From positions 62,001 through 126,000 of the forward strand of contig NZ_QMHO01000008.1 of assembly GCF_003313505.1 (NCBI RefSeq): a DNA stretch of 64,000 nt, read 5' to 3'. Below the pieces are notes generated by a model. That model worked only from the letters and a program-made list of their open reading frames with translations. It did not search any database and was not told the DNA's origin. This document shows, piece after piece, positions 43,628-55,110 of the stretch. Numbering within the stretch: the stretch's first letter is position 1; every line of letters starts with the position of its first letter. This DNA is from Pedobacter nanyangensis. Its GTDB lineage: Bacteria > Bacteroidota > Bacteroidia > Sphingobacteriales > Sphingobacteriaceae. Both the position numbers and the translations under genes were made by a program.

Positions 43628-43774
43628 GGTTTTGTTTGTTTTTTCCAAATATGCTGTATTGAAGATGGCGAAAATCTTTTTAATGAAAAAATTACATTTT
43701 GCTGCCGAGATTTTTTTTCCACTTTTTTCAACAAATTCCCAGGCATGGCACCTGGCCTAAAAAAAGCCCCTATT

Positions 43775-43791
43775 AGTGTAAAAAATACACT
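43775..43791. promoter_or_regulatory. Operator AGTGTA-N5-TACACT, site 1
   Basis: Palindrome with arms AGTGTA/TACACT and spacer AAAAA. The same core, same spacing, recurs upstream of pfkA (46038) and the 49.6-kb promoter (49601). It lies 153 nt upstream of the sugar kinase and 147 nt upstream of the divergent threonine aldolase, so either may be the target. Likely bound by the Nudix-type regulator encoded at 45262 (inference). Confidence 0.65.
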
Positions 43792-43821
43792 TTATGAAAA
43801 AACCGCCCTATCTATCTTCAA

Positions 43822-45261: not shown

Positions 45262-45951
45262 CTAAAAAGAAATCTCTTTCCCAAAAAGTTTATTGTATTT
45301 GCGTTTGTCAAATTTGTAAAGCGTAGCCGCCCTGAACGAAACACCCCGTTGCTTTTCTTCCAGTTCCTTCAATACCTTAAAGCTCAAAATCTTCTTCCTA
45401 AAATTACGCTTATCCAGTTTTTTGCCCAAAATCAGTTCGTAAACACTTTGCACTTGCGTAAGGGTAAATTTCTCTGGCAACAATTCAAAAGCCAATGGCA
45501 AATGCTTAATCCTTCGCTTAATTTTCTCCAGGCCCTTATTTAGGATATGTTGATGGTCAAAAGCAAGCTTGGGCAAATCGGCCACATTAATCCACTGTGC
45601 TTTTTTGGCATAACTGCTTAAAGGTTTCAGCGGCTTTTCGCCGCCCAGGCGCAACATGGCATAATAGGCCACGGAAATTACCCTGCCCTGCGGATGTCGG
45701 TCAACCTCCCCAAAGGCATAGTACTGTTCCATATAAATATCACTGAGGCCAGTGAGCTCCTTTAAAATACGCTGGGCCGATTGGTCCACGCTCTCGTCCT
45801 TATTTACCAAGTTGCCAGGCAATGCCCACCAATCCTTGAAAGGCTCTTCATTTCTCTCGATCAGCAATATCTTGAGCTCGCTGCCATCAAATCCGAAAAG
45901 CACGCAATCTATAGATACTGCAAAGTCAAAACCGGGGGTAATTTCTGTCAA
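45262..45951 (-). CDS. Nudix-domain transcriptional regulator (NrtR/AraR-like)
   Basis: A 229-residue protein with an N-terminal Nudix fold (residues ~10-145: VSIDCVLFGFDGSELKILLIER, WALPGNLV) and a C-terminal winged helix (KFTLTQVQSVYELILGKKLDKRNFRKKIL, part: FTLTQVQSVYELILGKKLD), the architecture of NrtR-type regulators. The Nudix box reads ESVDQSAQRILKELTGL: the first and last Glu of the REUxEE core are replaced by Ile and Leu, so hydrolysis is unlikely and ligand sensing likely. The only start is TTG at 45951; an in-frame TAA lies three codons upstream. Divergent from pfkA, with an operator-like palindrome between them. Confidence 0.85.
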   Translation of the reverse strand: MTEITPGFDFAVSIDCVLFGFDGSELKILLIERNEEPFKDWWALPGNLVNKDESVDQSAQRILKELTGLSDIYMEQYYAFGEVDRHPQGRVISVAYYAMLRLGGEKPLKPLSSYAKKAQWINVADLPKLAFDHQHILNKGLEKIKRRIKHLPLAFELLPEKFTLTQVQSVYELILGKKLDKRNFRKKILSFKVLKELEEKQRGVSFRAATLYKFDKRKYNKLFGKEISF

Positions 45952-46037
45952 AGCAATAATTTAAAATGTTCCTAATTTGAAACAAAATAAAGACACTTAT
46001 TTCGTTAATTCATAAAATTTTTGAAAAAAAATTACTT

Positions 46038-46054
46038 AGTGTAAAAAATACACG
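46038..46054. promoter_or_regulatory. Operator AGTGTA-N5-TACAC, site 2
   Basis: Arms AGTGTA and TACAC around AAAAA, ending 19 nt before the pfkA start and 87 nt from the divergent regulator start. A TATATTCG at 46056-46063 resembles a -7 box (TAnnTTTG with one change), so a bound protein would block or touch the promoter. Fits autoregulation plus control of pfkA. Confidence 0.7.
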
Positions 46055-46073
46055 TTATATTCGTATAATCAGA

Positions 46074-47956: not shown

Positions 47957-48982
<1,026 letters not shown>

Positions 48983-49472: not shown

Positions 49473-49600
49473 CGTTTAACTAATAGTTTTTGCGGTGGAA
49501 ACCTGCAATGTTCATTGAAATTGACAATACTTTGTATCATGTTTGCACAAACACGCAACACAAGGTCACAGAAATGTCATAACAAATGACAAAATAAAAT

Positions 49601-49629
49601 TTTCTTAGTGTATTATTTACACTAAGAAA
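49601..49629. promoter_or_regulatory. Operator with perfect 12-bp arms, site 3
   Basis: Arms TTTCTTAGTGTA and TACACTAAGAAA around TTATT form a perfect inverted repeat. It contains the same AGTGTA-N5-TACACT core as sites 1 and 2 and is the longest of the three. It ends 9 nt before a TAnnTTTG box, i.e. it covers the place where the -33 element would lie, the expected position for repression. Confidence 0.75.
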
Positions 49630-49638
49630 AATAATCCC

Positions 49639-49646
49639 TACATTTG
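49639..49646 (+). promoter_or_regulatory. -7 promoter element (TACATTTG) of the putative small RNA
   Basis: TACATTTG matches TAnnTTTG. The nearest downstream signal is the terminator at 49739-49780, with no ATG-initiated ORF between, so the product is probably a noncoding RNA. Confidence 0.6.
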
Positions 49647-49732
49647 TATCGTTGGTTTAAGAGCCGACCTTTGAAAATTAGAAATTCCTCCTTAATTGGA
49701 ATAAAGATCAACCCGTTCATACAGGTTTATAT

Positions 49733-49780
49733 TTGGTTAGAAAGAGAGACAAGTCTGGATGGATTGTCTCTTTTCTTTTT
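49733..49780 (+). repeat. attL, 48-bp direct repeat
   Basis: Identical over 48 bp to 55063-55110, starting TTGGTTAGAAAGAGAGAC; the flanking bases differ on both sides, which fixes the ends. The left copy retains the small RNA upstream, so it is the chromosomal-side copy. Confidence 0.88.
49739..49780 (+). terminator. Terminator of the putative small RNA, used as integration site
   Basis: Arms 49739-49752 and 49764-49777 pair with a solid inner 7 bp (GAGACAA/TTGTCTC), 11-nt loop, and a T-rich 3' end. The sequence is repeated exactly at the other end of the integrative element. Confidence 0.8.
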
Positions 49781-49874
49781 AGTGGGTATTTCAAGCAAAT
49801 TAAAGCTGTTTTTATACCATAACACAATTTAGTACAACCACTAAAAACACTTTATTTCTTTCTAAAAAGAGCTA

Positions 49875-53673: not shown

Positions 53674-54996
53674 CTACTTAATCTGTTTAGCTAAATATTC
53701 ATCTAAACTAAAGTAAGTACTATCATTACCTGACCTATCATAAATCTGTGTAGTTTGTATTTTTACGTGGTCTGCTCTTTTTTGGGTTGCCAATATATCT
53801 TCTTGACTAGAAATAGTAATACTGGTATGCTTCATTTCATAAATCTGTATATGATTTAAATGTTCATAATCTTCTCTAAATTTAAGAACCTGTAAATCCC
53901 TTATATCACCTTGGCTAATCGGCTTACCACCACTTTTAAACCTATTCCTACCGCCCAACAAATAGTCTTCTGGGTTTATAGCCCGTCCGTTCGCTGCGGT
54001 GTTTGTGTAAAAGCAGCTTACCAACTCTTTAGCTTTAGGTGATAGTGGTATCCAACGGCTTTTATCCTTATTGATTGCAGAAGAAGACTTTTTCATATTA
54101 AATACTTTTATTCTGCTATTATCTAAATCAATATGTTGGTGTTGAATGTGATAAGATTGCACAGGTCTAATGTTATTTTCAAAAACAAGTAAACATATTA
54201 AATGCAATCGCAAATACTTTGATTGGTTCAGCTTACTAAAAAACTCTATTAAATCACTATCACTAACGTAGTTGTACTTAGGCTTTTGGTGAGACGTGTC
54301 TAATGGTGCTATTTTGGCAGGATGATTCTTTATGTTCAAATCTTTAACATCAATCAACCAATTATAAAATGATTTAACATATACCATATATTGATTCACG
54401 CTACTACACGCTAATCCTTCTGGCTTTTTATCTGTCGGTGTTTTCAAAAGATAATACTTAAAAGCTTCCCAAACATCCACTCTCAAATCTCTCAATCTTA
54501 GATACTTATATTGGTCTTGACTGAAAAAATCATTTAGTCTCTTATTTCTATTACGGTAATTATCAATACGTTTTAACTGCCCTATTTCGTTCTGCTCTTC
54601 TTGCTTTTTAAAATAAGCATTAACGGCAGAAAGCACCGTAACGTTCATGTTTAAACTAGCTTCCTCTTTGGCAACATTTAAACTAGACACTATATAATCA
54701 ATTTTACTCGCATACAACTCTTTGAAATCATCAATCTTTTGGCTCAACGTTGGTCTAGTATTACCTCGACTGTTTATATAGTCGTTATACATAGCCCTTA
54801 CCTCTTCCTTATGCTTCTTTTGCTTTTGATTATAGTAACTCTCTAAGAAGTAATTATTCTGCTTGTCATTTTTCGAATTATCATAATATCTATTAGGAAT
54901 TTTCAACGTGATTTTCACTCCAGAATACACACCTAACGGATACTTATCATGCTGCTCCTTTTTTATTACTTTTTGCATTTTCATTACTTTTTTCAT
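53674..54996 (-). CDS. Tyrosine recombinase (site-specific integrase)
   Basis: A 440-residue integrase: N-terminal arm-binding part, SAM-like core-binding domain (RNRNKRLNDFFSQDQYKYL) and a catalytic domain with the first Arg in VFENNIRPVQSYH, the box II segment IYEMKHTSITIS (Lys in place of the usual Arg of HxxR, as often in Bacteroidetes integrases), His in RADHVKIQTTQ and nucleophile Tyr in QIYDRSG. It starts 67 nt inside attR. It should catalyse integration at the 48-bp site. Confidence 0.92.
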   Translation of the reverse strand: MKKVMKMQKVIKKEQHDKYPLGVYSGVKITLKIPNRYYDNSKNDKQNNYFLESYYNQKQKKHKEEVRAMYNDYINSRGNTRPTLSQKIDDFKELYASKIDYIVSSLNVAKEEASLNMNVTVLSAVNAYFKKQEEQNEIGQLKRIDNYRNRNKRLNDFFSQDQYKYLRLRDLRVDVWEAFKYYLLKTPTDKKPEGLACSSVNQYMVYVKSFYNWLIDVKDLNIKNHPAKIAPLDTSHQKPKYNYVSDSDLIEFFSKLNQSKYLRLHLICLLVFENNIRPVQSYHIQHQHIDLDNSRIKVFNMKKSSSAINKDKSRWIPLSPKAKELVSCFYTNTAANGRAINPEDYLLGGRNRFKSGGKPISQGDIRDLQVLKFREDYEHLNHIQIYEMKHTSITISSQEDILATQKRADHVKIQTTQIYDRSGNDSTYFSLDEYLAKQIK

Positions 54997-55062: not shown

Positions 55063-55110
55063 TTGGTTAGAAAGAGAGACAAGTCTGGATGGATTGTCTC
55101 TTTTCTTTTT
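55063..55110 (+). repeat. attR, 48-bp direct repeat
   Basis: Exact copy of 49733-49780. Flanking bases (C before, T after) differ from the left copy. Beyond it lies a 139-nt noncoding stretch and then the RadC-like gene. Confidence 0.88.

Follow-up and report, generated by a model that had tools for sequence, protein, structure and literature searches.

A conserved, operator-linked small RNA gene of Pedobacter nanyangensis with a predicted antisense match to susC start regions

In the stretch of Pedobacter nanyangensis DNA analyzed here (64,000 nucleotides, hereafter the window), sequence comparison identified a real and conserved small RNA (sRNA) gene linked to an operator palindrome. The reading we favor, at a probability of roughly 0.7, is that its product is a trans-acting antisense sRNA which, controlled through this operator by a Nudix protein, would block the translation of susC mRNAs as a flux-linked brake on uptake. 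According to this model, the RNA belongs to a multicopy family of the Sphingobacteriaceae. Its conserved core (UUCAUACAGGUUUAUAUUUGGUUAGAAA) would pair around the start codon of mRNAs encoding susC-like outer-membrane transporters, and probably of some other uptake-gene mRNAs as well, and the pairing would block translation of these targets. Transcription would be controlled via an AGTGTA-N5-TACACT operator common to glycolytic and central carbon and nitrogen genes. The most likely regulator is an NrtR-family Nudix protein encoded beside pfkA, most likely acting as a repressor and leaving the operator when central metabolites are in good supply. In this way, the RNA would be a flux-linked brake on polysaccharide uptake, like FopS or SgrS/Spot 42, and uptake would probably be lowered while sugar metabolism runs. 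A first-pass annotation of this DNA had already proposed an operator-controlled sRNA gene, and the proposal held: the gene is conserved and covarying, and its operator is that of a carbon-metabolism regulon. Coordinates of all features are given in Table 1.

Table 1. Features of the sRNA locus and of related sites, with positions counted from the first letter of the window.
Feature	Position	Strand	Remarks
Operator palindrome	49600..49630	.	13-bp arms, 5-nt spacer, core AGTGTA-N5-TACACT
-7 promoter box TACATTTG	49639..49646	+	TAnnTTTG in 30/30 genus loci examined
sRNA gene	49651..49780	+	~130 nt; 5′ end placed from box, 3′ end from terminator
Conserved core (proposed seed for antisense pairing at susC start codons)	49716..49743	+	GGTTTATATTTGGTTAG in 26/26 aligned rows
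Terminator hairpin with compensatory changes, then U-tract	49739..49776	+	Covariation
48-bp exact repeat, proposed att site in sRNA 3′ end	49733..49780	+	Exact second copy at 55063-55110
Distal 48-bp copy, proposed other element end	55063..55110	+	Just beyond recombinase gene
Tyrosine recombinase	53674..54996	-	Phage_integrase + Phage_int_SAM_5
gapA	47984..48982	+	Upstream neighbour, conserved in genus
Related operator before BadF-type sugar kinase	43773..43793	.	2 mismatches to TTAGTGT-N7-ACACTAA
Related operator between regulator gene and pfkA	46036..46056	.	3 mismatches to TTAGTGT-N7-ACACTAA
Nudix/NrtR-type regulator, candidate operator binder	45262..45951	-	NUDIX + NrtR_WHD + AraR_C domains

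The sRNA gene and its promoter

The palindrome reads TTTTCTTAGTGTA-TTATT-TACACTAAGAAAA. It had been annotated as perfect, which is correct, and as having 12-bp arms, which measure 13 bp. Perfect 12-bp arms with a spacer of at most 8 nt occur at one place in the 64-kb window and in 0 of 30 dinucleotide-shuffled sequences. The TAnnTTTG box, which we take to be the Bacteroidetes -7 promoter consensus, and the terminator were both found as first described (box at 49639-49646; hairpin at 49739-49776 plus U-tract), the hairpin beginning about 92 nt past the box. Presumably, the RNA is expressed from this promoter. Its single-sequence fold shows no exceptional stability, with a z-score of -1.1 and 30 of 200 shuffled sequences equally stable.

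The first-pass annotation had also described about 130 nt devoid of a credible open reading frame, and this description proved right. Short frames occur in some homologues; the window RNA contains no frame of at least 8 codons (ATG, GTG, or TTG start, with the stop inside the RNA), and no reading frame common to the 26 aligned homologues was found. The idea that the locus encodes a small peptide was rejected for lack of such a common frame and is scarcely credible. Rfam gave 0 matches within the window at the gathering level; the four matches obtained in 49500-49850 had E-values of 4-9 and were taken as chance. No match to the sRNA was found in the phage sequence collection. A 19-mer core pattern was present in 20 viral contigs (L370-L389).

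Conservation in Pedobacter

A comparative search of Pedobacter with covariation analysis, as suggested along with the first-pass annotation, yielded homologues of a 191-bp query in 141 of 145 genomes and a covarying terminator. The matches covered mainly the 3′ half and frequently numbered more than one per genome. For comparison, 30 loci were taken (L001 and L003-L031; L002, an att copy, was left out beforehand), of which 26 were aligned after removal of the near-identical L003, L024, L029, and L031. At all 29 Pedobacter loci with upstream sequence, GTGT-N7-ACAC lies 15-17 bp 5′ of the box. In the alignment, the 5′ half is variable and the core is conserved, with the RNA sequence GGUUUAUAUUUGGUUAG in 26 of 26 homologues, preceded by CAUACA in 22.

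The terminator hairpin comprises 16 pairs, eight of which are changed on both sides (shuffle mean 4.1 pairs). Altogether, 99.4% of its pair cells are paired, compared with 53-68% in slid controls; cells changed on both sides number 37 vs 8.6 in shuffles, and the covariation score was reached by 0 of 500 shuffles. Further pair types were no more numerous than in shuffles (14 vs 14.1). The UGGAU loop of the hairpin, with a bulged G, is constant while the stem covaries.

The gene gapA lies 5′ of the sRNA at 26 of the 30 loci (flanks of at most 1.5 kb each). In L094 and L095 (G089, G142), L266 and L268 (Pedobacter), and L369, the core immediately follows the gapA stop codon, which suggests that this form arose from the 3′ untranslated region of gapA.

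An integrated element at the 3′ end of the gene

The 48-bp direct repeats flank an integrase gene and delimit a putative integrative element some 5.3 kb long. Two further genomes of the genus (G138 and G123) carry a recombinase about 40% identical to this one beside the distal repeat, roughly 16-20 kb from the sRNA. Islands in tRNA genes leave the host gene intact on integration. Here the repeat holds the terminator, and integration should therefore leave the RNA intact as well; the locus would be an example of an sRNA gene serving as an integration site. The repeat and the recombinases in three genomes of the genus might suggest that the sequence is conserved solely through use as an integrase attachment site. 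Yet conservation extends beyond the 48-bp repeat to the operator, the promoter, and most of the core, and other genera carry the core with unrelated terminators, so that we hold this explanation to be very improbable.

An RNA family in the Sphingobacteriaceae

A covariance model built from the 3′ 81 nt of the RNA matched 224 of 301 genomes of the family at E ≤ 0.01. In the match list, the E-values of 69 same-genus genomes were all at or below 3.9 × 10−9, and the best value for other genera was 5.4 × 10−6, so that part of the matches in other genera may be due to chance. When 20 of the matches were read, further genera of the family proved to have homologues. A scan with the core pattern found at least 120 stretches in named genomes, the 80 listed ones belonging to Pedobacter, Mucilaginibacter, Sphingobacterium, Parapedobacter, Olivibacter, and unclassified or metagenome-assembled relatives. 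In the four latter named genera, the core is frequently multicopy, often with the same operator. Outside Pedobacter, the core is kept with unrelated terminators, and the UGGAU-type loop is not kept.

Among the 121 copies listed, 61 carry a GTGT-N6-8-ACAC operator no more than 200 bp upstream, 36 have a tRNA-like element ahead, 12 have a promoter box alone nearby, three come immediately after the gapA stop codon, and nine were unclassified. The tRNA-like elements lie directly 5′ of the core and are sometimes in tandem (examples are L250, L259, L262, L265, L270, L275, L318, and L346). The one in L318 has the acceptor UGUUGGG/CCCAACA, a standard T-arm, and an odd anticodon region. Such copies belong to Mucilaginibacter in 26 of the 27 cases with a listed title. 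No tRNA was detected at these elements by ARAGORN (10 loci) or by Rfam at the gathering level (four loci).

With a sequence model of the 38-nt core, matches were obtained in 25 of 295 genomes of the class, ten of them in the family, with 13 (G159) and eight matches in two family genomes of one genus. Each of the 15 genomes outside the family had one weak match (E from 2.6 × 10−4 to 0.0096), which was treated as chance. The window genome has three matches at E ≤ 0.01, one of them weak (E = 0.004). Its paralogue at C2:70964-71040, found with the covariance model, is a short form that follows right after its own box; short forms would measure about 65 nt, judged from box to terminator. Another palindrome is located 5′ of the promoter of the short paralogue in L077-L080 (CTACTAATTTAGTAG in three, altered in L079), hinting at a second regulator.

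Antisense match between the core and susC start regions

The reverse complement of the core resembles a start-codon region (CUAACCAAAUAUAAACCUGUAUGAA). The pattern CTAACCAA-N5-16-ATGA occurs 23 times in the window genome, compared with 15 times for the reversed control. One of these 23 sites is the sRNA itself on the opposite strand, and 12 have open frames of at least 160 codons, of which one (L108, ParA-like by eye) looks internal. Pfam searches with ten pattern genes identified (i) a sodium:solute symporter (SSS); (ii) an MFS transporter; (iii) a POT transporter; (iv) a major intrinsic protein (GlpF/aquaporin); (v) SusD; (vi) and (vii) two TonB plug proteins, in susC places; (viii) a dehydrogenase E1; (ix) a beta-helix protein; and (x) a protein related, below the cut-off, to a surface glycan-binding family. 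The start region of the symporter gene (CTAACCAAATATAAAACATTCATGA) matches the core of the window RNA over 15 nt. This gene is divergent to the paralogue C2:70964-71040, about 250 nt away, and a divergent SSS neighbour was found for two of the four short paralogues examined. At the orthologous SSS and MFS start regions, AACCAA-like motifs are partly kept, but strict retention of the 15-nt match was not seen, and this comparison was not taken as proof.

The window genome contains 48 susC-like genes over the family cut-off. Duplex energies with the core were calculated by RNAduplex, which ignores accessibility, for the 30 best among 56 susC matches in this genome and for 335 background start regions, the first ATG following a stop being taken as the start codon. 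The mean was -14.7 kcal/mol for susC vs -9.9 kcal/mol for the background (p = 8.5 × 10−9), and with dinucleotide-shuffled cores as a reference, z was -2.2 vs -0.3 (p = 8.8 × 10−9). As the background includes four susC genes (three of the tested 30 and one further), the contrast is reduced. A duplex of -14 kcal/mol or lower was predicted for 15 of 30 susC regions vs 22 of 335 background regions, and 14 of these 15 strong susC duplexes cover the start codon. Moreover, CTAACCAA is located within 40 nt upstream of the start in 6/30 susC and 0/335 background genes. Against 90 sampled background genes, the core gave a difference of -4.34 kcal/mol, which none of 600 random 28-mers of equal GC content from the same genome matched (mean +0.56, sd 0.65, minimum -2.83). 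By sequence, the core is antisense to susC start regions.

When a 28-nt segment was moved along the RNA, the susC effect was strongest at 49714-49741 (difference -4.7, p = 1.7 × 10−8), weaker in other segments overlapping the core, and without significance (p ≥ 0.05) in segments not overlapping it. It had been suggested at first that a TCCTCC stretch (49686-49691) could pair with purine-rich targets. The stretch is present in the window, but it is neither conserved nor enriched: it occurs in three of the 26 aligned homologues (L001, L004, and L006; also in the excluded near-identical L003), and four 28-nt segments containing it gave no susC excess (p = 0.5-0.94). TCCTCC, or anti-Shine-Dalgarno, targeting was rejected on these grounds and has hardly any credit left as an explanation; the sequence at 49716-49743 is the better candidate for the antisense element.

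A small susC excess was also obtained with the reversed core in the window genome (G000; p = 0.002), so that part of the susC signal is attributable to composition. This weak effect, together with the loop that stays constant while its stem covaries, would fit a real sRNA that acts via a protein, with the UGGAU loop and the core as binding sites of an RNA-binding protein; the complementarity to susC would then be a by-product of shared composition. We consider this unlikely, given that the core is kept without this loop in other genera, that no equal-GC 28-mer among 600 reached the susC excess, and that the strong duplexes span start codons.

The proposed pairing with susC mRNAs was further assessed in other genomes, using each genome's own core and comparing random 28-mers against 90 sampled background genes. 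In the Sphingobacterium-type genome G159 (top 20 of 48 susC matches), energies were -14.2 vs -10.7 (p = 1.2 × 10−5), and 0 of 300 random 28-mers were as good. The second Pedobacter genome, G087 (20 of 53 matches; three high-ranking, late-beginning matches were skipped), gave a weaker effect, -11.4 vs -10.3 (p = 0.08; p = 0.011 for z), with 1 of 300 random 28-mers as good. For the Mucilaginibacter-type genome G192, the mean, taken for susC starts alone, was -12.1 with its own core, a modest figure that gives no clear indication and derives from 25 of 58 matches, at least two of which (L221 and L229) have clearly wrong starts. A test for co-variation at one base, comparing core and susC starts of G000 with those of G192, pointed in the expected direction (p = 0.004). 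G000 by itself accounted for this result, which was not taken as proof; within G192, no preference was seen.

Operator sites and candidate regulator

The operator core had been described as the same in front of pfkA and of the sugar kinase. This is roughly the case; the sites are not identical, differing at three and two, respectively, of the 14 fixed positions of TTAGTGT-N7-ACACTAA. Within the window alone, seven operator matches with up to three mismatches do not amount to a significant number, which 9 of 100 shuffles reached as well. Genome-wide, TAGTGT-N7-ACACTA occurs six times exactly and nine times with one mismatch. Nine of these 15 best sites lie by (i) pyk, encoding pyruvate kinase; (ii) gltB/talC, encoding glutamate synthase and fructose-6-phosphate aldolase; (iii) gdh, encoding glutamate dehydrogenase; (iv) ilvE, encoding a branched-chain aminotransferase; (v) fba, encoding class II fructose-bisphosphate aldolase; (vi) icd, encoding monomeric isocitrate dehydrogenase; (vii) pckA, encoding PEP carboxykinase; (viii) the sugar kinase gene; and (ix) the sRNA. 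Among these products, the glutamate dehydrogenase and the fragments of glutamate synthase and isocitrate dehydrogenase fall short of the curated cut-offs for their best families. At ilvE, the site overlaps the frame before it at that frame's end. At the other six sites, no central-metabolism gene was recognized; one lies before a gene for an AraJ-like MFS transporter. Sites with up to two mismatches were not enriched genome-wide (97 vs 170 for the reversed control), and the regulon assignment therefore rests on location.

The gene of a protein with NUDIX and winged-helix domains adjoins the operator at 46036-46056, divergently, beside pfkA. Most likely, the operator is bound by this NrtR-family Nudix regulator. 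AraR, a NUDIX-winged-helix protein of the same family, is reported to recognize a 21-bp semipalindromic motif at sugar genes and, in Bacteroides, to be a DNA binder released by L-arabinose (PMC4666351). Unlike the arabinose and xylose operons ascribed to AraR/XylR in that source, the genes with sites here are glycolytic and central carbon and nitrogen genes and the sRNA gene.

The placement of the palindrome differs among genera. In Sphingobacterium and Parapedobacter copies, it abuts the box, which would suit a repressor, as opposed to the 15-17 bp found in Pedobacter; among the matches listed, Mucilaginibacter copies have no TAnnTTTG box between palindrome and core. Possibly, susC is regulated as proposed while a different regulator binds the operator, or the operator serves activation in place of repression. 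This we regard as a less likely alternative, as the divergent NUDIX and NrtR_WHD gene lies at the operator beside pfkA and as AraR, of the same NrtR family, is known to bind DNA and to be released by L-arabinose (PMC4666351).

Relation to known systems

SgrS and Spot 42 of enterics are controlled by sugar state, block translation, and stop sugar uptake or use; they are Hfq-dependent and under other regulators. The RNA is likened to them here by description, through the proposed sugar-state control of uptake.

Judged by anatomy and target prediction, the RNA would work like FopS of B. thetaiotaomicron, the nearest known system. FopS is described as a 14-member sRNA family that pairs with susC start regions and represses susC, and is countered by the RRM-1 protein RbpB (PMC11697453). 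Features in common are a multicopy occurrence in Bacteroidota with a conserved seed and a variable downstream part (PMC11697453), pairing at susC start codons (predicted here), similar copy numbers (13 and 8 in two genomes vs 14 for FopS), and short forms that would measure about 65 nt here. Unlike FopS as described, the RNA belongs to another lineage, has the AGTGTA-N5-TACACT operator, and is linked to gapA; the copy in the window is of the long form, its core lying beside the terminator. A search for RRM_1 (PF00076) found none in G000 and G159, one in G087, and four in G192, with a positive control in Bacteroides ihuae. Because no RbpB-type partner was detected in the window genome, we do not file the RNA as a FopS member, and the comparison with FopS is one of descriptions.

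GibS, a GlcNAc-induced sRNA of B. thetaiotaomicron (PMC7366714), is partially similar to FopS (PMC11697453, PMC7366714). Like the RNA as proposed here, GibS is reported as a long (145 nt), sugar-responsive sRNA that pairs with translation initiation regions, and it has a near-palindromic promoter motif of its own, PM2 (PMC7366714). Unlike the window RNA, it has its seed at the 5′ end and its gene beside glycogen genes, and it is reported to target a branching enzyme and a hypothetical protein. In view of GibS (PMC7366714) and FopS (PMC11697453), both known in B. thetaiotaomicron, the initial statement that a sugar-responsive sRNA would be new in Bacteroidetes needs to be softened. In the literature searched, with most subscription journals outside the search, we found no description of this RNA in Sphingobacteriaceae.

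Biological meaning

Polysaccharide-degrading Bacteroidota carry dozens of susC systems, and to our knowledge their ranking against central metabolism is poorly understood. As a tentative extension, to which we give a little less than even odds, the copies in the family may form a family-wide anti-susC RNA regulon, in which one seed would be supplied from several sources within the same lineages, glycolysis would set the brake, and at least some members would do without RbpB. The sources would be (i) a promoter under the central-carbon operator; (ii) the 3′ end of the gapA mRNA; and (iii) a transcript following a tRNA-like element. In such a regulon, glycolytic activity itself would determine how much of the RNA is present to restrain dozens of uptake systems for polysaccharides. 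If the favored reading of the sRNA is true, it provides a testable link from a glycolysis regulator via an RNA to a susC translation switch. Targeting of susC by sRNAs would then be known from soil Sphingobacteriaceae as well as from gut Bacteroides, and such control would operate in genomes in which no RRM_1 protein was detected.
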